From Armatimonadota bacterium (GTDB taxonomy: Bacteria > Armatimonadota > Armatimonadia > Armatimonadales > Armatimonadaceae), in contig JAPLCP010000102.1 of assembly GCA_026392155.1 (NCBI GenBank), positions 27,858-68,897 of the forward strand: a stretch of DNA of 41,040 nt. The letters are read 5' to 3'. Below are positions 3,549-25,538 of this stretch, piece by piece (within the stretch, counting starts at the first letter, position 1; each line of letters opens with the position of its first letter). The notes beneath the pieces were generated by a model that was not told the DNA's origin, searched no databases, and worked only from the letters and a program-made list of their open reading frames with translations. Position numbers and translations under genes: made by a program.

Positions 3549-3872
3549 GTGGCGATCTTTGTACTTACCATTGCAAGGGGCCAGCGCGACGAGCTAGGTG
3601 TCTACCTACAGCCCGGCCTTGCGATGGAGGAGCTGGACTTTCGCCCCGAGCTGAAGCGCCTCAAGCCCGGTGAGATCTTGGAGCTTCGGTACCCTAATGG
3701 AACCATTATGAGCGCCCAGCTCTTGGCCTTTGGGATTCCCGCTCTCAGGCTTTCCGACGGCTCGGCCTTGGTCAGCCCGACAGACTCCGTGCACCTGACG
3801 ATTTCTTACCCCTTCGACCCCGAAGGTCTCCCTGCAGGCACCGAACTCTGGTGGCTACAGGGAGCTGTGTGA
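3549..3872 (+). CDS. Hypothetical protein, 107 aa
   Basis: Small soluble protein starting with GTG directly after the stop of the eroded FKBP gene, so translation is probably coupled. The composition is beta-rich with alternating short strands, for example GEILELRYPNGTIMSAQLLAFG followed by SDGSALVSPTDSVHLTI. This could form a small beta-barrel resembling domain 2 of translation GTPases, but that is only a pattern impression. No catalytic motif, signal peptide or membrane segment is visible. It ends 13 nt before the convergent M24 peptidase gene. Confidence 0.6.
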   Translation: MAIFVLTIARGQRDELGVYLQPGLAMEELDFRPELKRLKPGEILELRYPNGTIMSAQLLAFGIPALRLSDGSALVSPTDSVHLTISYPFDPEGLPAGTELWWLQGAV

Positions 3873-15059: not shown

Positions 15060-16463
15060 ATGAGCCTTTTTCGAGAGCTGGCAGTGGCGCTAGTAGAGCA
15101 GGGAAGTGGGCAGGGTAGGCCACCGGCGGTGATGATTGACCCGATCCGGCCTCTTGCGCCGCGCAGGCCGCACTTCAAGGCGCGGGCTAAAAACGTCATC
15201 GTGCTCTACCAGGTGGGTGGGCCAGGGCAGATGGACACGTTCGACTACAAGCCCGAGCTGCAAAAGCTCCACAAGAAACCCGTGCCAAAGTCTTTCAAAG
15301 ACGCGCTGAAGGGCAGCCGCCACGCCAATGTGTTTGAGGGCTGCAAGGACGAGCTGATGGCCTCGCCGTATAAGTTCACCCAGCAGGGCAAGAGTGGGCT
15401 GTGGGTGAGCGAGCTGTTTCCCGAGCTGGCCAAGCACGTGGATGATCTCTGCTTTGTCCACTCGCTCCAGTCCGAGTCCAATAATCATGCGCCGTCGAGC
15501 TATCTGTTCCACACGGGCGATCTCAACGCGGGTAAGGCCAGCCTGGGGAGCTGGATCACCTATGGCCTGGGCACCGAAAATCAGAGCCTGCCGGGCTATG
15601 TGGTGCTCTTTGATGCCGGGCCGCTCGGGGGCGCGGCCAACTACCAGAACGGGTTTCTGCCGCCTGCCTTTCAGCCTACAAAGCTGCGAGACCAAGGACA
15701 GCTTGTGCTGGATCTCACGCCACCCAAGGAGTTTGCGGCGAGTCAGCAGGACACGTTTGACTTTCTGCGCCAGATGAACCTCAAGCACCGGCAGGGCAAA
15801 AAAGAGGGCGTTGAGCTGGATGCCCGGATCGCGAGCTACGAGCTGGCGTATCGCATGCAGAGCGCGGCGCTGGAAGTCGGGGAGGTGGAGAAAGAGCCCG
15901 CGCACCTGCGGCGTGCCTACGGCTTCGAGCACAAAGACCCACGCACGGTCGCCTATGCGCGCAAGCTGCTCCTTGCCCGTCGGCTGGTCGAGCGTGGGGT
16001 GCGCTTTGTCGAGGTCTACGACATGCCCGACAAAGATGGCTGGGATGCACATGGGGAGCTGGAGAAAAACCACACGCCGCGTGCTCGGTGGATTGATCAG
16101 CCCACGGCGGCGCTTCTGACGGACTTAAAGCAGCGTGGCCTGTGGGACGAGACACTGATTGTCTGGGCGAGCGAGTTTGGCCGCACGCCCATGATGCAAG
16201 GTGACAGCGGGCGGCAGCACAACGCGGCGGGTTTTACGATCTGGCTGGGTGGGGGAGCCGTCAAGCCGCAGCGCTACGGGGCCACGGATGAGATTGGGTT
16301 AATGGCACGAGAGAACCCCGTCACGTTCAAAGACCTCCACGCCACGATTCTGGCCGCACTGGGCCTCGACAACGAAAAGCTCTACTTCGAGCGCGCCGGT
16401 CGCCCCGAGCGCCTCACAGGGGTTGCTGGTACAGCGAACATCGTCAAAGAGCTTTTGGTGTAA
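15060..16463 (+). CDS. DUF1501 family protein
   Basis: 467 residues from the ATG at 15060. The frame is open further upstream, but that part overlaps the divergent gene. The protein shows the DUF1501 alkaline-phosphatase/sulfatase-like layout: VIVLYQVGGPGQMDTFDYKPEL near the N-terminus, FVHSLQSESNNHAPSSYLFHTG, RLVERGVRFVEVYDMPDKDGWDAH, LIVWASEFGRTPMMQ and GRQHNAAGFTIWLGGG at the C-terminus. In Planctomycetes such genes usually accompany a DUF1549/DUF1553 (PSCyt) partner, and none is present here. The usual twin-arginine signal is not evident. Its 3' end overlaps the convergent APH gene by 82 bp. Confidence 0.85.
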   Translation: MSLFRELAVALVEQGSGQGRPPAVMIDPIRPLAPRRPHFKARAKNVIVLYQVGGPGQMDTFDYKPELQKLHKKPVPKSFKDALKGSRHANVFEGCKDELMASPYKFTQQGKSGLWVSELFPELAKHVDDLCFVHSLQSESNNHAPSSYLFHTGDLNAGKASLGSWITYGLGTENQSLPGYVVLFDAGPLGGAANYQNGFLPPAFQPTKLRDQGQLVLDLTPPKEFAASQQDTFDFLRQMNLKHRQGKKEGVELDARIASYELAYRMQSAALEVGEVEKEPAHLRRAYGFEHKDPRTVAYARKLLLARRLVERGVRFVEVYDMPDKDGWDAHGELEKNHTPRARWIDQPTAALLTDLKQRGLWDETLIVWASEFGRTPMMQGDSGRQHNAAGFTIWLGGGAVKPQRYGATDEIGLMARENPVTFKDLHATILAALGLDNEKLYFERAGRPERLTGVAGTANIVKELLV

Positions 16464-17344
16464 GTGCCTAGAAGCGTATCCAGAGTGTGAAGCGATGCGT
16501 TTACAATCGTAGGATTTGTCTCCCAGTAGTAAGGAAGGGCAATGAGCGCCATAGACAACGCCCAGCCCCGTCCGCGCTCCCACATGGCATCGTCTATTGC
16601 GAGGGCCTCTCGGAAGACTTGGCGCGAGTCGGTGTCGAACAGGTTCCAGGCGACGATGAGTTCGCAGGCGGGATCACCCACGCCCAGGCAGCCAAAGTCA
16701 ATCACGGCGCTGAGCTGGCCGTTGGTGGCGAGGAGGTTGCCGGAGTGTAAGTCACCGTGAATCCAGACGGGGGCATGGTTCCAGACGGGGGCTTGGAGAG
16801 CGACTTCCCAGGCTTTCGTAGCCGTGTCGCTGTCTATTCGCCCTTGGAGCTTGGTGAGAGCACGGCGGACGGCGGCATCGCGCTCCCCTAGGGGCACCCC
16901 TCGCCCGGAGTTGTGCTCACCTGGCGCGGGGCCATGGGTGGCATCGAGGCTTTGGAGCGCTGTGATAAAGGCCGCGAGCGTCCTTGCCGCCTTGGAGGGA
17001 TCGGTAAGCTGGTCGAGTATCGCGTTTTTACCGTCAAGCCACCGGTAGACCGACCAGTGCCACGGGTAGCCCTCGCCCGGCACTCCCATCGCCAGCGGCG
17101 CGGGAACCGCCAGCGGGAGCTGCGGCGCGAGCTTGGGGAGCCACTGCTGCTCTTTCTCCACCTGCCCGACTGCCCAGTGAACGCGCGGGAGCCGGACGAC
17201 AAGCTCATCACCCAGACGATAAAGCGCGTTGTCGGTTCCGGCGGAGGCGACGGGTTGGATCGGAAGCGCGGCCCACTGCGGAAACTGCATGGCTAGCAAG
17301 CGGCTCACAAGGGCAGAATCCGTATAGACCTCGTCGGGGTGCAC
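16382..17344 (-). CDS. Aminoglycoside phosphotransferase (APH) family kinase
   Basis: 320 residues from a GTG at 17344, which overlaps the stop of the PhyH gene in the string TAGTG. Family members usually begin at the HPDEV block, which supports this start. An ATG at 17365 would add seven residues. Kinase motifs are clear: the N-lobe GTDNALYRLGDELVVRLPR, the Brenner-type HGDLHSGN catalytic loop, and VIDFGCLGVGDPACELIVAW with the metal-binding Asp. It may phosphorylate a small molecule, not necessarily an antibiotic. The last 27 codons lie in the overlap with DUF1501 and give an atypical basic C-terminus. Confidence 0.85.
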   Translation of the reverse strand: MHPDEVYTDSALVSRLLAMQFPQWAALPIQPVASAGTDNALYRLGDELVVRLPRVHWAVGQVEKEQQWLPKLAPQLPLAVPAPLAMGVPGEGYPWHWSVYRWLDGKNAILDQLTDPSKAARTLAAFITALQSLDATHGPAPGEHNSGRGVPLGERDAAVRRALTKLQGRIDSDTATKAWEVALQAPVWNHAPVWIHGDLHSGNLLATNGQLSAVIDFGCLGVGDPACELIVAWNLFDTDSRQVFREALAIDDAMWERGRGWALSMALIALPYYWETNPTIVNASLHTLDTLLGTYTKSSLTMFAVPATPVRRSGRPARSK

Positions 17345-18165
17345 TACCCATACCACTCGCGCCATTTTGCGCGGAGCGGGACGTCTTCGTCGGTGGGGAG
17401 GTGGACGCCGGTGATAGTCTTGATGTCGCCCATGAGCTGGCGCTGGATGGGGTTGGCTTTTTCGTAGAGCTCGCGGTAGCTAAACTGGGGAGAAAAATCC
17501 ATCGGAAAGACCCAGCGGAAGCCGTAGCCGATAAAGAGGGTCTTGCGGGTGATGTCGGAAAAGTTAGCTCCGACGGCGTGGTAGGTGCGCTGCTCGAAAA
17601 TAAACGCATCGCCTGGCTTGCCACAGATCTCAATCGCGCCGTACGGGTGCGGAGCGTCGGGGGCTTTTGCAAGCGGCCCCGTCAGGCGGTTGCTTCCCGG
17701 CACCACTTGCGTATTTCCCCGCCCTGGCTCCGACTGATCCGAGAGAAAGAATGCGATCTTAAGCAAGATTCTGGGGTGCGGCTCGGTCATCTCCCAGCTG
17801 GATTGGCCACCGTCGCGGTGCCAGCCCTCGCCCTTGAAGTTCGCGTCGGCACCGGGTGTGGGGGGACGCACAATGAGATGGCTGGTCATCAGGTGGATGT
17901 CCCAGCCCAGAATCCCCGCTACCAGCGGCAGCACTTGCGGGTGGTCAATCAGCTCCAGAAACGCCGGGTCATCGGGCAGGCAGCCGCGCTTCTGCCAGTG
18001 CTTTCGCTCCGAGAGGCCCTCGTGCTCAATGCCCTCGGAAGAGAGCCGGTCGGCGGCAGCAACCAGCCGCGCGACCAGCTCAGGGTCTATTAAGTTCCGT
18101 AGTACCAAGAAACCGTCGCGGTCAAACTGCGCTTTCTGCTCCACGGTGAGAAGATTGGGTGTCAT
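17344..18165 (-). CDS. Phytanoyl-CoA dioxygenase (PhyH) family oxygenase
   Basis: 273 residues, the usual size for this Fe(II)/2-oxoglutarate dioxygenase family. The iron-binding triad is visible as His116-x-Asp118 (GEGWHRDGG) and His196 (QRTYHAVGANFSD). The 2-oxoglutarate-binding Arg is probably R207. Substrate is unknown. Bacterial members hydroxylate diverse small molecules. The APH kinase starts on its stop codon, so the pair is translationally coupled and may act on one metabolite. A leaderless -10 box precedes the ATG. A second promoter-like segment lies further upstream at 18272-18277. Confidence 0.88.
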   Translation of the reverse strand: MTPNLLTVEQKAQFDRDGFLVLRNLIDPELVARLVAAADRLSSEGIEHEGLSERKHWQKRGCLPDDPAFLELIDHPQVLPLVAGILGWDIHLMTSHLIVRPPTPGADANFKGEGWHRDGGQSSWEMTEPHPRILLKIAFFLSDQSEPGRGNTQVVPGSNRLTGPLAKAPDAPHPYGAIEICGKPGDAFIFEQRTYHAVGANFSDITRKTLFIGYGFRWVFPMDFSPQFSYRELYEKANPIQRQLMGDIKTITGVHLPTDEDVPLRAKWREWYG

Positions 18166-18171
18166 GTGCCT

Positions 18172-18177
18172 ATTTTA
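18172..18177 (-). promoter_or_regulatory. -10 box (TAAAAT) of leaderless PhyH gene
   Basis: Minus-strand TTGGTAAAATAGGCAC then ATG: the hexamer ends 6 nt before the start at 18165. There is no Shine-Dalgarno sequence. Confidence 0.55.
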
Positions 18178-18227
18178 CCAATTCTCGTGGATTTTTTAGG
18201 TATATCTTTCGCACAACTTCCACAAAA

Positions 18228-18288
18228 GGATGTAATCCAGACGTTTGTCTGGACAGTTTTTGGACTGCGAGATTGTAGCATTTTCGCC
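18228..18288 (-). repeat. Promoter-like direct repeat, copy 1, with operator-like dyad
   Basis: The core 18240-18284 matches 19589-19633 at about 40 of 45 positions. On the minus strand it contains an extended -10 element TGCTACAAT (hexamer 18272-18277) and a shared downstream string AGTCCAAAAACTGTCCA. Only this copy carries a perfect 7-bp dyad, TCCAGAC-GTTT-GTCTGGA (18236-18253), just downstream of the predicted start site, where an operator would sit. It lies upstream of the PhyH gene. Confidence 0.7.
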
Positions 18289-18299
18289 AGTTTGTGTGC

Positions 18300-19547
18300 T
18301 CATGGCGCTAGGGGCTGTCTCACCCAGTTATAGAGGAAGTCGGGCACGACGTCGTTGCGCGACCCGTCGTGTCCTTTGCATGCCTGGTAGAGCAGCAAGC
18401 GGCCTGACTTTTGTTTGTCGATGGGCAGTGCCTTGGAGAACTCGAAGAGTTTCCCCACCGTCTCGGCATAGGCCTCGTAGGCATTGGAGATCGACGATGC
18501 CTCCCATCGCGCGGCGATCAGGCGTTGCAGTAGGGAAACGGTGCGGACAGCCGAAGAAACAGAGTAAACGTACCGTTCCACGAGGCTCGCCCAGTTGGCT
18601 TGGGTGAGAGGGGCGTCCAGCAGCTTGCGCACTTGGTCGTCGAGGGGGGCGGAGAGCACCTTGTGGACGGTACCGGATTGCGTGCCGACGATGATGGTTT
18701 CGGTGCTTCCGGGCGTGGCGAGGGAGATGGCTCTGATCCTGGGTTGGGTCAGCTCATCGAGCAGATCATACTCGACAGGATCGAGCTTTCCATCCTCGAG
18801 CAGAATCCCCACGACTTCCTTGGCGGACGCCTCGGTGAATCCGTTGGGCGCGGTGGCGCGGGTTTGTCGGATCAGGGCGAGGATGCGCGGATCAGCGACG
18901 GCGCGGGAGTCATTGCCTCGGGGGGGCATCTCCGCGAGCTTGCCCCCCTGAGAGGCACTCGTCTCGAAGATCAGGCTGGTGCGCTTGCCATCGGGGGCGA
19001 GCGTGATGGCCTTGAAGTCCTCGAAGCGCGTGACGGTGACGGTGCCCTTGAGCTCCGGCGAGCTGGCCGTGGGATCGGTGCCGTCGGTGGTGTAGCGGAC
19101 GTACTGGCGCTGCATGCGGTTCGTAAAATCTGCGAAGCTGCGCTGGGACTGCGAGGTCCATGCCACCTCGGCGAGGGCGGCGGCGCGGGGGAGCGTGAAG
19201 TAGTCGCCGTAGAGCGCGGGGCCGGGGTTTGTTTTAAGCTCGGGCTTGTGCAGGAACATAGGGGCACTTAAGCTCACGCCTTTGGGGCTAACCTCCAGCA
19301 GATAGCCCTCCGCACCGAGCTTGGTCAGCGACGGATTGACCTTCAGCGTGATACTGCCCTTGCTCGTGATTTTCGGCGCCTGCCCAGTCGTGTTCTGGAG
19401 CCAGCCGGTGAGCAGCTGCGCCGCCGGACGACTGGTCGCATCGGCCCCGATAGCTGTTTTATCGTCGAGCGTGAAGCTCCCGGCGCTTTGCACCAGTGCG
19501 GCAGGTTTGGGCACAAGCGAGACAGGAGGTTGAGGAAGAGTAAACAT
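18300..19547 (-). CDS. GH20 hexosaminidase-derived chimera lacking the catalytic core
   Basis: 415 residues in an intact frame, but not a functional GH20 enzyme. Residues 1-96 match the GH20b N-terminal domain (SLVPKPAALVQSAGSFTLDDKT..., GYLLEVSPKGVSLSA). The chain then jumps at about 97-112 to the very end of the catalytic barrel (LPRAAALAEVAWT, FADFTNRM; 119-145). It continues with a chitobiase C-terminal-type segment (VRYTTDGTDPT, 150-195). About 300 residues with the catalytic Asp-Glu pair are missing. Residues 200-415 are a helical region of unknown origin. The signal peptide is also gone. No ribosome site is obvious. A promoter-like repeat lies on each side. Confidence 0.7.
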   Translation of the reverse strand: MFTLPQPPVSLVPKPAALVQSAGSFTLDDKTAIGADATSRPAAQLLTGWLQNTTGQAPKITSKGSITLKVNPSLTKLGAEGYLLEVSPKGVSLSAPMFLHKPELKTNPGPALYGDYFTLPRAAALAEVAWTSQSQRSFADFTNRMQRQYVRYTTDGTDPTASSPELKGTVTVTRFEDFKAITLAPDGKRTSLIFETSASQGGKLAEMPPRGNDSRAVADPRILALIRQTRATAPNGFTEASAKEVVGILLEDGKLDPVEYDLLDELTQPRIRAISLATPGSTETIIVGTQSGTVHKVLSAPLDDQVRKLLDAPLTQANWASLVERYVYSVSSAVRTVSLLQRLIAARWEASSISNAYEAYAETVGKLFEFSKALPIDKQKSGRLLLYQACKGHDGSRNDVVPDFLYNWVRQPLAP

Positions 19548-19575
19548 CGTTATTTTTCTCGTTTTAATCTTAGCT

Positions 19576-19640
19576 GGATTATCATCCTGACGTTTGAATG
19601 GACAGTTTTTGGACTACGCGATTATAGCATTTTTGCTCCG
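19576..19640 (-). repeat. Promoter-like direct repeat, copy 2
   Basis: Second copy of the segment at 18228-18288. On the minus strand it contains a strong extended -10 element, TGCTATAAT (hexamer 19621-19626), giving a leader of about 66 nt before the chimera's ATG at 19547. The dyad of copy 1 is degraded here (TCCTGAC-GTTT-GAATGGA). Confidence 0.7.
19621..19626 (-). promoter_or_regulatory. Extended -10 promoter of the GH20 chimera
   Basis: TGCTATAAT on the minus strand is a consensus extended -10 element. No recognisable -35 is conserved between the two repeat copies, in line with extended -10 usage. The stretch from here to the SDR stop at 19765 (about 140 bp) has no convincing gene. Confidence 0.5.
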
Positions 19641-19764
19641 GACGAACAGATGGCTTCTTGAGTAGACCCAGCTCCTTTTTGGTGACGGCCTCATGGACTT
19701 CAACCTGTCTTTTTTGGGACTGGTCATCCGTTCTAGCCGCCACCGGAGCGTCAGGGCTAAAGGG

Positions 19765-20472
19765 TCAGAGCGTCTGGCCCACGTAGTCTTGTGCGCGGAA
19801 GAGCGTACCCGTAGTTCCATCGTTAATGAGCGCAGGGACGAGTGCGCCGGGGAGTACGGACTCAACGGAGCCGGGGGCATTGGGGCCGCCCAGATCGGTG
19901 CGTAGCCAGCCGGGATCGAGTAGGTTGATCAACACGCCGTCGCCTTTGAGGTGGCTTGCGGTATCGGTGACGAACTTATCCACGGCGGCTTTGGAGATCG
20001 AGTAGGCAATTAGCTCGGGCTGATCTTGAATGCCCGACGTGACATTGATAATCCGACCCCACTTGCGCTTCACCATACCCGGAATCAGGCTGTGGCAGAT
20101 GCGAACCAGTGCCGTTACGTTCACCTCAAAGCTCTTGCGGAAGTCCTCGGCAGGGACACTCTTCCAGTCGCTACGGTACGGCGTCATGATCGCAGCGTTG
20201 TTGTAGACAATGTCAATGCCCGGTGTCGAGGCCAGCACACTCGCCAGCATCGCGTCCACTTGCGCTTCGTCGGAGAGCTCTGCCGCCACTTGTAGCACCT
20301 GCACGCCCTTGGCCGTCAGCTCCGCTGCCAGTGTATCTGTTCCTACTGTCTCGCGGCTATGCAGCACGATATTACAGCCGTACTCCGCAAGCCCTAGGCT
20401 CACCTGTCGTCCAATCCCACGGCTCGCGCCGGTTACCAAGGCCCACTTGCCCTTAATCTCTGCTTTTTGCAT
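19765..20472 (-). CDS. Short-chain dehydrogenase/reductase (SDR)
   Basis: 235 residues from ATG 20472. An in-frame GTG six bases upstream is also possible, and AAAGGA serves either start. Classical SDR features: the NAD(P)-binding TGASRGIG (15-22), YNNAAIM for the NAG-type motif, a Ser in NVTSGIQ and the catalytic pair in AYSISKAA. It ends with LFRAQDYVGQTL. It should oxidise or reduce a hydroxyl or keto group. The substrate is probably a sugar or polyol-like compound given the operon with LacI, GH5 and a second SDR. It follows the second SDR gene after 20 bp. Confidence 0.87.
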   Translation of the reverse strand: MQKAEIKGKWALVTGASRGIGRQVSLGLAEYGCNIVLHSRETVGTDTLAAELTAKGVQVLQVAAELSDEAQVDAMLASVLASTPGIDIVYNNAAIMTPYRSDWKSVPAEDFRKSFEVNVTALVRICHSLIPGMVKRKWGRIINVTSGIQDQPELIAYSISKAAVDKFVTDTASHLKGDGVLINLLDPGWLRTDLGGPNAPGSVESVLPGALVPALINDGTTGTLFRAQDYVGQTL

Positions 20473-20492
20473 GTTCACTCAATCCTTTAGTT

Positions 20493-21251
20493 TTAAGACC
20501 CAAAAATGCCACCGTTGATGTCAAGAGTCGCGCCGGTGATAAAACCGTCGTACTCGCTGGCGAGAAAAGCGACAGCCCGCGCGACATCCTCGGGCGTACC
20601 CGCACGGCCCAGCGGCAAAGTCGCGATCGTTGCGGCAGCCGACTCCGCCGTGGTGTGTGTGTTGTGAAACGCCGTGCCGAGAATCAAGCCCGGCGCGACG
20701 GCATTCACCCGAATCCCACGCCCGCCCAGCTCTTTGGCAAGCGAGCGTGTCCAAGTCAGAATCGCGCCCTTCACCGACGAGTAGGCCAGTGAGCCCGCGT
20801 GACCTCCCATTCGCCCCGCCAGTGAGGCGAGATTCACAACACTGCTCTGCTCTGCTGTCACCAAGTAGGGCACTGCGTGCTGCGTGACGAGCATCGTGCT
20901 GGTGAGGTTGATGTCGATCGTGCGCTGCCAAAACGCCAGATCCAGCTCCTCAAGCTTGCGACGACCGATCAGATCACCTGCGTTGTTGACCAAGATATCA
21001 AGCCCGCCGAGAAAGGCAACAGAGTCCTCCACCAGCGCCAGCGCCTGCGTGCTCTGCGAGAGATCCGCCGCGAAGCACGCAGCCCGCACGCCCAGCGGCG
21101 CGGCACGTTTAGCCGCCTCTGCGCCCTCGGCGCTCTTGTGGTAGTGAATGGCGACATCGCAGCCCTGGCGCAGCAACTCTCCCACGATCGCTTGGCCAAG
21201 CCCCTGTCCGCCGCCCGTTACCAGTGCCCGCTTGCCTTGAAGCCGTCCCAT
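20493..21251 (-). CDS. SDR family oxidoreductase (FabG-like)
   Basis: 252 residues with the full classical SDR set: TGGGQGLG near the N-terminus, NNAGDLIG, the catalytic Ser in VNLASLAGRMGG, Tyr and Lys in AYSSVKGAIL, and a typical C-terminus ITGATLDINGG. The fold and length match 3-ketoacyl-ACP reductase-like SDRs, which are often broad sugar or polyol dehydrogenases when outside fatty-acid operons. The ATG at 21251 follows the stop of the GH5 gene by 3 nt, so it belongs to the LacI-GH5-SDR-SDR operon. It may process a product of the glycosidase. Confidence 0.88.
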   Translation of the reverse strand: MGRLQGKRALVTGGGQGLGQAIVGELLRQGCDVAIHYHKSAEGAEAAKRAAPLGVRAACFAADLSQSTQALALVEDSVAFLGGLDILVNNAGDLIGRRKLEELDLAFWQRTIDINLTSTMLVTQHAVPYLVTAEQSSVVNLASLAGRMGGHAGSLAYSSVKGAILTWTRSLAKELGGRGIRVNAVAPGLILGTAFHNTHTTAESAAATIATLPLGRAGTPEDVARAVAFLASEYDGFITGATLDINGGIFGS

Positions 21252-22236: not shown

Positions 22237-23265
22237 TTATTTCTCTTCTCTTTTGTTTCTTGGGGGAGCACAGCTCTTGCGCACGACTAACTGCGGCGTG
22301 ACCACTACGTGTTGCGGGAGTTCACGAAGCGCTGTTTTCTGAACCCGCTCCAGCAATAAGCCCACAAACTGGGTCGCGAGTGGCTCGATATGGCCGCCGA
22401 TCGTGGTCAAGCGCGGGCTGATGTAGCTTGCAAGATCGAGATTGTCAAAGCCGACCACGGTCATTTGTTGCGGAACAGAGACACCCGCATCGGCAAGGTA
22501 GCCAATCACAAGGGCCGCGAGTGAGTCTTGGTAGGCAAAAATCGCGGTGGGGGGCTCAGGGAGCGCGAGCAAGTGCGCCACGCCACGCCCGACCTCCGCA
22601 TCGCTCTGGGCGATGACTTGCAGCGCTTCGGGAAGCTCGATTCCTGCCTCTTTGAGGGCCGCTTTGAAGCCATAGAGCCGGTCGTAGATACCGCGATGGG
22701 GGCTCTTACCCAAGATCGCAATGCGCCGATGCCCCAGCCCGATCAAGTGCTGGGCAAGAGCGTAGCCGCCCTTGGCATCATCGCCAGTGACTGTGTCGAG
22801 GTGCTCGGTACCCTCCACCCAGCCCATCAGCACCAGCGGCACACCCGAGGCCACCAGCGCGTTGACGTGCTCTCGGGCGACGAGGCCATTCTCGCCGGAC
22901 ACCAGCAAAATACCGTCCACGCGCTGCTCCCGAAGCGAGGCCAGGCAGGCGGACTCGACCTCTTGGTCGGTGCCACTGAGCTGCAGCTGCAAGCTATAGC
23001 CCGCCGCTCGTACGAGATCGGCGATGAGCTGCACCAGCTTGGGATAGTAGGGGTTCGAGACCTCGGGAACCACAAGCCCAACTGTCTTGGTGGAGCGGAC
23101 CTTGAGATTTCGCGCCACTTGATTGACCTGGTAGCCCGCCTCGCTCGCTAGTATCTGGATGCGCTTTTTGGTCTCCGCATTGACCAGTGGGCTATCCGCC
23201 AGTGCCCGTGAGACGGTTGAGTGGGAGACGCCTGCTTGGCGTGCGATATCTTCAAGAGTAGTCAT
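22237..23265 (-). CDS. LacI family transcriptional regulator
   Basis: 342 residues from ATG 23265 (MTTLEDIARQAG). A longer frame to 23280 would add five codons. The N-terminal helix-turn-helix (residues 2-25, LEDIARQAGVSHSTVSRAL) is followed by the hinge and a periplasmic-binding-protein-like effector domain (VGLVVPEVSNPYYPKLVQLI, ... VVGFDNLDLASYISPRLTTI). It should repress its own operon (GH5 and two SDRs downstream) until a sugar binds. The start overlaps the stop of the upstream lipoprotein gene as ATGA. A LacI-type half-symmetric site covers the start region (23265-23280). Confidence 0.92.
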   Translation of the reverse strand: MTTLEDIARQAGVSHSTVSRALADSPLVNAETKKRIQILASEAGYQVNQVARNLKVRSTKTVGLVVPEVSNPYYPKLVQLIADLVRAAGYSLQLQLSGTDQEVESACLASLREQRVDGILLVSGENGLVAREHVNALVASGVPLVLMGWVEGTEHLDTVTGDDAKGGYALAQHLIGLGHRRIAILGKSPHRGIYDRLYGFKAALKEAGIELPEALQVIAQSDAEVGRGVAHLLALPEPPTAIFAYQDSLAALVIGYLADAGVSVPQQMTVVGFDNLDLASYISPRLTTIGGHIEPLATQFVGLLLERVQKTALRELPQHVVVTPQLVVRKSCAPPRNKREEK

Positions 23266-25538
23266 TGCACACGATTGCAAAAGAGTCTATCAAATGCCCT
23301 GCGACTTGTCAAGGCGGTTGCGGGGCCGGTGATGGGAACCCCGCGCAGACCCTTGAGGTTCACGCTGAGCGTGTAGCCAAAGTATCCCTCACCGACCTCG
23401 GTTACCGTCAGAGCTCCGGGAGCCGAGGGGGCGAAGTAGAGGGAGTCATTTCCCTCAGGGAGCTCATAGGTAAGATCGTAGTCACTCACCACGCTTGCTG
23501 TGCTCCCTACCGAGAGAGTCTTTGTGGAGAACTGCAAGATCAGCTTCAGCGCCACTTTCCCTCCGTAGGCCGTGGAGACTTGCTGATAGAGTGCTCCCAG
23601 CGCCAATCCTGTTGTACCACCGAGGCGCTGAGTGCTGTACTTGGGAAGAAGGCGTGTCTTCCCATCGAACTTTACCTTGACCATCCCAAAGGGCACATCG
23701 TCATTGACCTTGATTTGTGATTGGGCTTGCCCATGGGAAACCTGGCTACCGTCTTTAGCGGTCTCGTTGGCCTCCACGGTGACTGTCAATGTGCCCTGTG
23801 TTGAGGGCGTGGTTGCCAGCGTCACCACGCTGCCCGTCGTCTCGAAGCTTGAGCCTACCTTACCTTCTTTCGCATCGCTTAAGTTCGCGAGGCTGCTCCC
23901 GCTCAGGGTCCACTTATAGCGGATATTCGCCGCCCCAGGCACCGTCGGGACATTGGCCGTGAGCACGAGACTATCCCCCGGTTCGATCGTTTCCGCAGCG
24001 GGACTGAGGCTTACGTCGCTGGTAAAGAGGGTTGCTTGCCACTGATCCGCTTGTTCGGAGTGAGCCAGATCCCAAAGCACTGCCCCGAGATCCCCCCCGC
24101 CCACAAGCACTCCCACCACATTCAGTGGGGCCAAGAGGAGCTTCAGAGCAAGCTGCCCACTGGCAGCGAGAGCCTCCTTGCTGAGAATCGCCTGAAGTGC
24201 CGGACTGAGCCGGGAGAGGATGGCGGCAATCGAGAGAAAGAAGCTGGTGTCGGAGACGCAAAGCTTAAGAAATAGCTGTGTCGCTCGGCTGAAGTCTCCT
24301 GTCTCGACCGCGGCGGCCACTTCAAACCAGGACTGAATCTGAAGAGCACGGAGGCTGGTGACCGCGGCCTCGATGGCGGCTTCGTTTGTGGCGATATCCC
24401 GAAGTCCCCAGATCTCCAGAAGTAAGCCTAGGAGAACATCCGCGAACCAGGAGATGAAGTTGAGCACGAGCCGAGACTCACGCCACCCGGAGACGGCATC
24501 TATGTAGCGGGGATCGGAGTAGATAGCAGGATCGCCCGTGAGCGACGAGGACCCCAGCACGACCACCTCAAAGAGAGTCTTTTTGGCATCGGTCGCCATT
24601 GTCAGAGGCAGTGGCTGTGTGGAAACAGGGACGAACGCGGTCTGTCCGGAGTAGAAACCGAAGATCGTGCTCATGATGCCGAGTGCGCGTGTGGAACCTA
24701 GACGGGTTGTTGAGACGACTTTTGCTTTTGTGTAGTTTGTCGCAAGCCCATTTTTGTCCACCTTACCGACCTCATAGAGGTAGATCTGGCAGTAGCGACG
24801 GGCATGGTTGCTGAGAACGATCGTATGGGGGGCGGTTCCTTGTAAGAGCTCGACATTGCTCTGAAGGGTATTGGGTGTGGTCAAAAGAAGGGCATTTCCC
24901 TCTGCCCGCGTCACCCGTGTTTTGGGAGGAAGTGCCGCACGGCTTGGCGTCGTCCTCTGGGTCAGGATGGCCTCAACTGCCGTTTTTAACGCGGCTCCAA
25001 TCGCCGGGTCTTCCTCCACAATCGCGGAGGGATTTGCGGCAAGACGCGCCGTAATCACCGTCTCCAGCTCCCCTACGGCAGGATGGGCATCCAGTTGGGC
25101 CAAGAGGAAAGTCTTGTTGGTGGCCGCGACCATGTGCCCCCCCAGAGCAAAGTAGAGGAGAGCTACCGCCGTGGAGCGTGCACTCAGCACCGCTCCCGTA
25201 TCCGCCAAGAAGCCCATCAGGATAGGCTTGTCCGATGCTGCGCACCAGGCAAGTGTTGGGCCCGTCGGCTCGGTACTCACCTGCGCCGAAAAAGCCCCAC
25301 TGGAGGACACTTTCTGGCTACCCGCGCCGGTTTTGACCGTTAGTGCGCTACTCGTAAGCGCAAATCCCGCCGGAAGAGTGAGCGTTCCACTAACGGAACG
25401 TGTCCCTGTTAGTATGCCATCTCCGGAGCTCCCGCCGCCTCTGATGGGGCCAAAGCCTAGGTTCCAGCCACTGCCACAGCCCGCCAAACTCGTCACGGGC
25501 AGGGCGAGTGCAAGTTTCAGTAGTTTTCGTCGGTTCAT
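23262..25538 (-). CDS. Large lipoprotein of unknown function
   Basis: 758 residues. The signal sequence ends in the lipobox SLAGC (Cys21), and a Gly/Ser linker follows. The N-terminal part (about 40-160) is beta-rich (LTLPAGFALTSSALTVKT). A long helical, partly hydrophobic middle (about 360-500, LNFISWFADVLLGLLLEIWGL, LALKLLLAPLNVVGVLVGG) may associate with membrane. A PKD/Ig-like module (about 515-610, VSLSPAAETIEPGDSLVLTANV ... VTVEANETA) and a final beta domain complete it. No catalytic motif is recognised. An AGGAG lies 13 nt before the ATG, rather far for a ribosome site. The stop overlaps the LacI start as ATGA, so the regulator may be co-transcribed with it. Confidence 0.75.
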   Translation of the reverse strand: MNRRKLLKLALALPVTSLAGCGSGWNLGFGPIRGGGSSGDGILTGTRSVSGTLTLPAGFALTSSALTVKTGAGSQKVSSSGAFSAQVSTEPTGPTLAWCAASDKPILMGFLADTGAVLSARSTAVALLYFALGGHMVAATNKTFLLAQLDAHPAVGELETVITARLAANPSAIVEEDPAIGAALKTAVEAILTQRTTPSRAALPPKTRVTRAEGNALLLTTPNTLQSNVELLQGTAPHTIVLSNHARRYCQIYLYEVGKVDKNGLATNYTKAKVVSTTRLGSTRALGIMSTIFGFYSGQTAFVPVSTQPLPLTMATDAKKTLFEVVVLGSSSLTGDPAIYSDPRYIDAVSGWRESRLVLNFISWFADVLLGLLLEIWGLRDIATNEAAIEAAVTSLRALQIQSWFEVAAAVETGDFSRATQLFLKLCVSDTSFFLSIAAILSRLSPALQAILSKEALAASGQLALKLLLAPLNVVGVLVGGGDLGAVLWDLAHSEQADQWQATLFTSDVSLSPAAETIEPGDSLVLTANVPTVPGAANIRYKWTLSGSSLANLSDAKEGKVGSSFETTGSVVTLATTPSTQGTLTVTVEANETAKDGSQVSHGQAQSQIKVNDDVPFGMVKVKFDGKTRLLPKYSTQRLGGTTGLALGALYQQVSTAYGGKVALKLILQFSTKTLSVGSTASVVSDYDLTYELPEGNDSLYFAPSAPGALTVTEVGEGYFGYTLSVNLKGLRGVPITGPATALTSRRAFDRLFCNRVQ
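23265..23280 (-). promoter_or_regulatory. Candidate LacI-type operator at the lacI-like gene start
   Basis: TTGCAATCGTGTGCAA on the minus strand has five matching outer base pairs and a central CG, the style of LacI-family operators. It directly abuts the regulator's ATG and lies within the last codons of the upstream lipoprotein gene. Its 11-base core GCAATCGTGTG recurs at 26212-26222, before the gene starting at 26184. Confidence 0.35.

Follow-up and report, generated by a model that had tools for sequence, protein, structure and literature searches.

The window analysed here, a stretch of 41,040 nucleotides from a genome assembled in 228 contigs (4.77 Mb; hereafter G000), contains on its minus strand an open reading frame of 415 codons (18300..19547) that starts with ATG, has no stop codon and exhibits gene-like codon use over its whole length, including residues 197–415 (GC3 0.76). 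The in-frame codon score was +0.165, compared with +0.162 for the neighbouring DUF1501 gene, and the scores of the other two forward frames were negative. Upstream of the ATG, the frame stays open for 22 more codons before a stop, and by eye this extension contains no hydrophobic stretch. The locus is situated well inside contig C130. A gene for a PhyH-like dioxygenase (17344..18165; PF05721, E = 2.6e-20) lies nearby and is 85% identical in G001, the one congeneric genome with which G000 was compared.

A Pfam search identified a Glyco_hydro_20b (GH20b) domain (PF02838) at residues 10–95 of the encoded protein (E = 2.8e-8, 35 bits against a cut-off of 26.1), truncated to profile positions 3–91 of 124, together with Fn3_assoc at residues 144–190 (E = 1.5e-7) and CHB_HEX_C_1 at residues 150–190 (E = 5.7e-7); the catalytic Glyco_hydro_20 model yielded no match at E ≤ 1. 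In alignments with solved GH20 enzymes, the end of the barrel corresponded to residues 113–159 and the chitobiase-type C-terminal domain to residues 147–189. The Pfam matches, these alignments and the 415-codon frame agree with an initial annotation of this DNA, which had described a chimera of the N-terminal part of GH20b, the barrel end and a chitobiase-type C-terminal segment in one open frame. That annotation had assigned residues 1–96 and 119–195 to GH20; matches were found in both stretches, but the similarity to GH20 hexosaminidases runs unbroken from residue 9 to residue 196, and residues 97–118 belong to it as well. The further proposal of a carbohydrate-binding protein found no support: GH20b is described as a stabilizing domain for the catalytic domain of GH20 enzymes, against which the post-barrel helix packs (excerpt of PMC4449183 used here), no carbohydrate-binding module was matched in Pfam at E ≤ 1, and the hydropathy profile of the chimera contains no hydrophobic, secretion-signal-like N-terminal stretch. 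Carbohydrate binding is possible as far as the sequence goes. In searches with the whole chimera, NCBIfam gave one sub-threshold match (SelD, E = 0.091, residues 333–390) and PADLOC gave none, and a single-sequence model of residues 1–199 alone had a pLDDT of 32.

The initial annotation had recommended a search of the genome for a full-length paralogue, and one is present. Contig C129 carries the one strong GH20 gene of G000 (catalytic domain, E = 5.7e-98), a 741-aa ORF with the motif IHIGGDE that is located after a sulfatase-like gene (family assigned by eye); two more GH20 matches in G000 are weak (E = 7.5e-5 and 3.4e-4). The C129 protein appears to possess a signal-like N-terminus (by hydropathy only, its best 12-residue N-terminal value was 2.04, compared with 1.19 for the chimera). 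The orthologue of this gene in G001 exhibits 84% DNA identity and similar upstream sequence; the chimera is absent from G001.

Alignment to the C129 protein located the junctions. At the first of them (J1, 19259..19260), 346 codons (1038 nt) are missing, corresponding to residues 133–478 of the C129 protein, i.e. the catalytic barrel with IHIGGDE; the catalytic Asp–Glu block is thus lacking as initially described, though the loss exceeds the estimate of about 300 residues. Because the barrel is lost, the product is predicted to be non-catalytic. Judged from the alignment, the chimera retains most of GH20b and the post-barrel helix region, but the second GH20b helix, which precedes the barrel, would have been lost. 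The ends of J1 share no long microhomology or repeat, nor an overlap of k-mer length. A second junction before the C-terminal domain (J2, 19091..19100) marks the additional loss of 34 codons (102 nt, residues 532–565 of the C129 protein), a block that in the full-length gene is flanked by two copies of the 10-nt repeat GTCCGCTACA; deletion between short repeats is the usual mark of slippage or recombination deletion. Similarity to the C129 protein stops at its residue 612, equivalent to residue 196 of the chimera, between IFET and SASQ. Both missing blocks are multiples of three, and all three joins are in frame.

The retained GH20 portion is a mosaic with respect to the C129 gene. The N-terminal part of GH20b (residues 9–61, 159 nt, 19365..19523) exhibits 58% DNA identity to C129 and a dS of 2.75, near saturation, and a short stretch at residues 139–149 (ADFTNRMQRQY, 33 nt, 19101..19133) exhibits 73% identity with saturated dS. 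Three tracts on the same strand are nearly identical to C129: tract A, the rest of the retained GH20b (residues 62–96, 105 nt, 19260..19364; 94% identity, dS 0.13), tract B, the region of the last barrel strand and helix (LPRAAALAEVAWT; residues 97–138, 126 nt, 19134..19259; 98%, dS 0.07, both changes synonymous), and tract C, which is Fn3_assoc/CHB_HEX_C-like (residues 150–196, 141 nt, 18960..19100; 98%, dS 0.09, all three changes synonymous). None of 1000 permutations of all 564 sites produced a change point as strong as that at codon 62, and neither did any of 1000 permutations of the 188 third positions. Sudden switches between high and low synonymous identity to a single donor are the pattern of a gene-conversion mosaic.

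Comparison with G001 provides a relative time scale. The dS between C129 and G001 is 0.48 over the old N-terminal tract and 0.94 over tract A, and the two are identical to each other over the stretch matching residues 139–149, whereas tracts A, B and C taken together differ from C129 by a dS of about 0.09; the old tracts of the chimera diverge more from C129 than C129 does from its congener. From this tract-by-tract comparison of dS, the near-identical tracts appear to postdate the split from G001 and the diverged tracts to predate it, the margin being smaller for tract C (dS 0.26 between C129 and G001, 0.22 between chimera and G001). A simple recent duplicate with one deletion is ruled out, as identity to the parent alternates between 58–73% and 94–98% along the retained length. 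The simplest history that fits starts from an old paralogue, parts of which the resident gene overwrote; the deletions would have occurred during this overwriting or after it. The in-frame deletion postulated initially was right as regards the loss of the catalytic core, but it was not a single event: two deletions, patchy overwriting by the intact paralogue and a join to an orphan coding segment are involved. Conversion in the reverse direction, from the chimera into the C129 gene, is possible; third-position identity between C129 and G001 is 0.47 over tract A, below the adjoining stretch, although values nearly as low (0.50–0.53) recur in other places in the C129 gene.

The differences between the chimera and C129 in tracts A, B and C amount to 6, 2 and 3 bases, of which 8/11 are synonymous against a random expectation of 25% (binomial P = 0.0011; P = 0.019 if only the C129 branch was constrained). 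When the codons were sorted by hand, four of the 11 changes fell on the chimera branch (residues 83, 93, 96 and 186; three synonymous and one nonsynonymous, too few for a test), four on the C129 branch (residues 68, 75, 159 and 196, where the chimera agrees with G001 against C129), and three could not be placed.

The C-terminal half of the chimera (residues 197–415, 18303..18959, minus strand) is predicted to be mostly helical. The initial annotation had counted 215 further residues of unassigned type; a separate search, which it had also suggested, detected no relative in anything searched, and the length after residue 196 is 219. No match was obtained in Pfam at E ≤ 10 or in plasmids, phages, IMG/VR or the GTDB contig collection, and the best values in PHROGs and among PDB sequences were E = 0.19 and 0.85, respectively. 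In a phylum sample, 18 of 291 genomes were matched at E ≤ 0.1, one of them being G000 itself, and the per-genome values of the other 17 (E = 0.017–0.098) are those that chance predicts over 291 genomes. Within G000, the only match at E ≤ 10 besides the sequence itself covered 35 residues of an RNase-II-like protein (family assigned by eye; E = 0.58) and was taken as chance. Because the single-sequence model of this part has a pLDDT of 59, fold searches with it carry little weight; Foldseek found no match at E ≤ 0.001 in PDB and BFVD, and the best VIA-align match was malonyl-CoA decarboxylase (Z = 7.3, rmsd 3.7, 105 residues), within a range that is common for helical models. No source for these residues was found in the collections searched. 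The gene accordingly joins GH20-derived segments in frame to non-homologous sequence, the arrangement by which composite genes are recognized.

A 53-nt element is situated 36 nt upstream of the ATG (19584..19636, minus strand) and bears on the gene strand a motif, TGCTATAAT, which we take to be an extended –10-like motif. A second copy, 87% alike and in the same orientation (18235..18287), is located 12 nt past the stop codon and upstream of the PhyH-like gene, and the two forms of the motif read TGCTATAAT and TGCTACAAT. Further copies occur at 3719–3775 of L017 (G000 contig C104), 4368–4420 of L018 and 2736–2796 of L063; by genome, copies were found on C104 and C163, a partial one on C3, and one in G001. 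The element has sharp ends, the –10-like TGCTA(T/C)AAT and direct TGGAC repeats, and it precedes unrelated genes in the two congeneric genomes. Because the C163 copy ends about 40 nt before the start of an ORF, the element, read by eye, suggests a shared promoter/operator or leader; it is not among the promoters reported by a consensus scan. As the 53-nt repeats flank the gene, we considered whether they had mobilized it, but did not adopt this view, since each copy elsewhere stands alone and the –10-like motif falls within the conserved block. Two neighbours of other copies may be recorded here. The short contig C104, which also contains untranslatable bases, carries a transposase-like ORF (by eye; L017 4677–5138), and directly behind the L018 copy lies a short lipoprotein-like ORF resembling formylglycine-generating-enzyme/sulfatase-modifying proteins (by eye; L018 4460–5149).

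The segment that holds the chimera (18180–19766) coincides exactly with a synteny breakpoint, the blocks on its two sides being about 190 kb apart in G001. The first block (window 15120–18179) matches G001 C4:567.8–570.1 kb, its DNA match on the PhyH side ending at 18179, before the element at 18235, and the second (19767–21251 and 22278–23267) matches C4:376.9–379.4 kb. The G001 sequence adjoining the second block was found on contig C139 in G000, and of that adjoining the first, only 31 nt at the PhyH edge have a counterpart in G000. A homologue with the complete catalytic domain at this locus, which the initial annotation would have taken as a sign of misassembly, was not found in the one congener, G001. 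A search of 61 genomes with the complete protein gave matches at E ≤ 0.001 in 13, one of them G000; those outside the genus were at E = 2.5e-7 or weaker, and residues 209–415 had no match outside G000. Neither the congener nor any of the 59 further relatives searched yielded an orthologue.

The best explanation that we can offer for these observations, at about even odds, is a lineage-specific composite gene with a non-catalytic cytoplasmic protein as its product, in which selection, if it acts at all, would act on the new C-terminal domain. The lineage would once have possessed a standard GH20 enzyme with a signal-like N-terminus (the present C129 gene) and an older, diverged GH20 paralogue. 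After the split from G001, stretches of the paralogue would have been overwritten by the C129 gene through ectopic gene conversion or recombination. Two in-frame deletions would have removed 346 codons, with the catalytic barrel, and 34 codons, the latter between the two 10-nt repeats, and what remained would have been fused in frame with a coding segment of 219 codons, of no traced source. The resulting gene, devoid of a signal-like N-terminus, would now sit behind a dispersed promoter-like element, and its product, most likely non-catalytic and cytoplasmic, would be kept for its new C-terminal domain, the GH20b-plus-helix remnant serving as a folding or interaction scaffold. We propose that the remnant would help folding because the post-barrel helix packs on GH20b in GH20 enzymes and the chimera keeps both in part. 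A more specific version, which we regard as tentative and rather unlikely, holds that this is a new cytoplasmic protein soon after its birth, an inactivated, conversion-patched hexosaminidase scaffold that carries a domain without relatives and is expressed from the shared 53-nt promoter element.

A young relic with the same history of mosaic and deletions, in which the deletions are recent, the product is functionless and the frame is open for want of time, is a somewhat doubtful but serious alternative. The loss of the catalytic core, the truncated GH20b, the missing signal-like N-terminus and the want of an orthologue in the 60 relatives would all be expected of such a relic, as would its position at a synteny breakpoint, where debris is common. 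With substitutions only and a branch divergence of 0.02–0.045, the probability of a stop-free frame is 0.48–0.19. In favour of maintenance, had the whole gene drifted since the tracts came to be shared (branch divergence 0.045), the chance of neither stop nor frameshift would be 0.004 to 0.19, depending on the indel rate assumed. Against decay stand also the three joins, all in frame, the coding-like orphan half, the promoter-like element upstream and the excess of synonymous changes in the tracts, although the conversion may have long preceded the deletions, in which case selection on the tracts may predate the loss of function. Between maintenance by selection and a young relic, we lean slightly towards maintenance.

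An assembly artefact, in which reads from C129 were spliced into another locus by short-read assembly or gap filling, is improbable. The near-identical tracts are 105–141 nt long, about the length of short reads, and the assembly is fragmented into 228 contigs, one of which (C104) contains residues that cannot be translated, as a run of unknown bases would give; however, all three tracts differ from C129, misplaced C129 reads would not agree with G001 at residues 68, 75, 159 and 196, and J1 has no k-mer-length overlap and lies well inside its contig. Least probable of all is an old, rarely sampled family with its own GH20b-like domain, not derived from the resident gene, for although C129 lies further from the chimera than from G001 over the first 53 aligned codons and residues 139–149, and the C-terminal half is of orphan type, the three tracts are 94–98% identical in DNA to the resident gene, including a barrel end for which such a family would have no use, and neither a whole-protein relative in 60 other genomes beyond GH20 matches nor a relative of the C-terminal half in the 290 other phylum-sample genomes beyond chance, or in the GTDB contig scans, was found.

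Compared with the 'Model A' architecture (GH20b–GH20–alpha) of GH20 beta-N-acetylhexosaminidases in the excerpt of PMC4449183, represented here by the C129 gene, residues 9–196 of the chimera are collinear, but 346 and 34 residues and the signal-like N-terminus are lacking and 219 unrelated residues are appended. Composite, or remodelled, genes account on average for 14.76% of bacterial genes (excerpt of PMC6769587). Like the prokaryotic examples catalogued there, the chimera combines parts of one family with unrelated sequence in one frame; unlike them, as far as that excerpt describes them, its joins and its resident parent are legible at the base level, and the parent has overwritten part of the product. 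Paralogues in bacteria are likewise known to undergo gene conversion, with concerted evolution (excerpt of PMC6053082). As in those cases, the tracts of the chimera are more alike within the genome than between congeners, but conversion here is patchy, affects a copy without a catalytic domain and does not amount to full-length homogenization of two working genes. In the literature searched on the subject, and with no wider claim of absence, we met no description of this gene. Composite genes and conversion between paralogues are thus known phenomena, and the present case is unusual in that its steps can be read so well and in its orphan half.

As a rule, composite genes come to light when their components have already diverged. 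In this genome the parent enzyme persists at 94–98% identity over part of the length, which allows direct reading of the deletions, the overwritten tracts and the join. Should no protein be produced, the locus is an unusually clean record of the decay of a bacterial gene copy through recombination with its paralogue; should one be produced, it offers a compact example of how an enzyme can become a non-catalytic protein that carries an orphan domain. The reading as a new protein, if true, would provide a base-by-base document of how a composite orphan gene was built from a resident enzyme.
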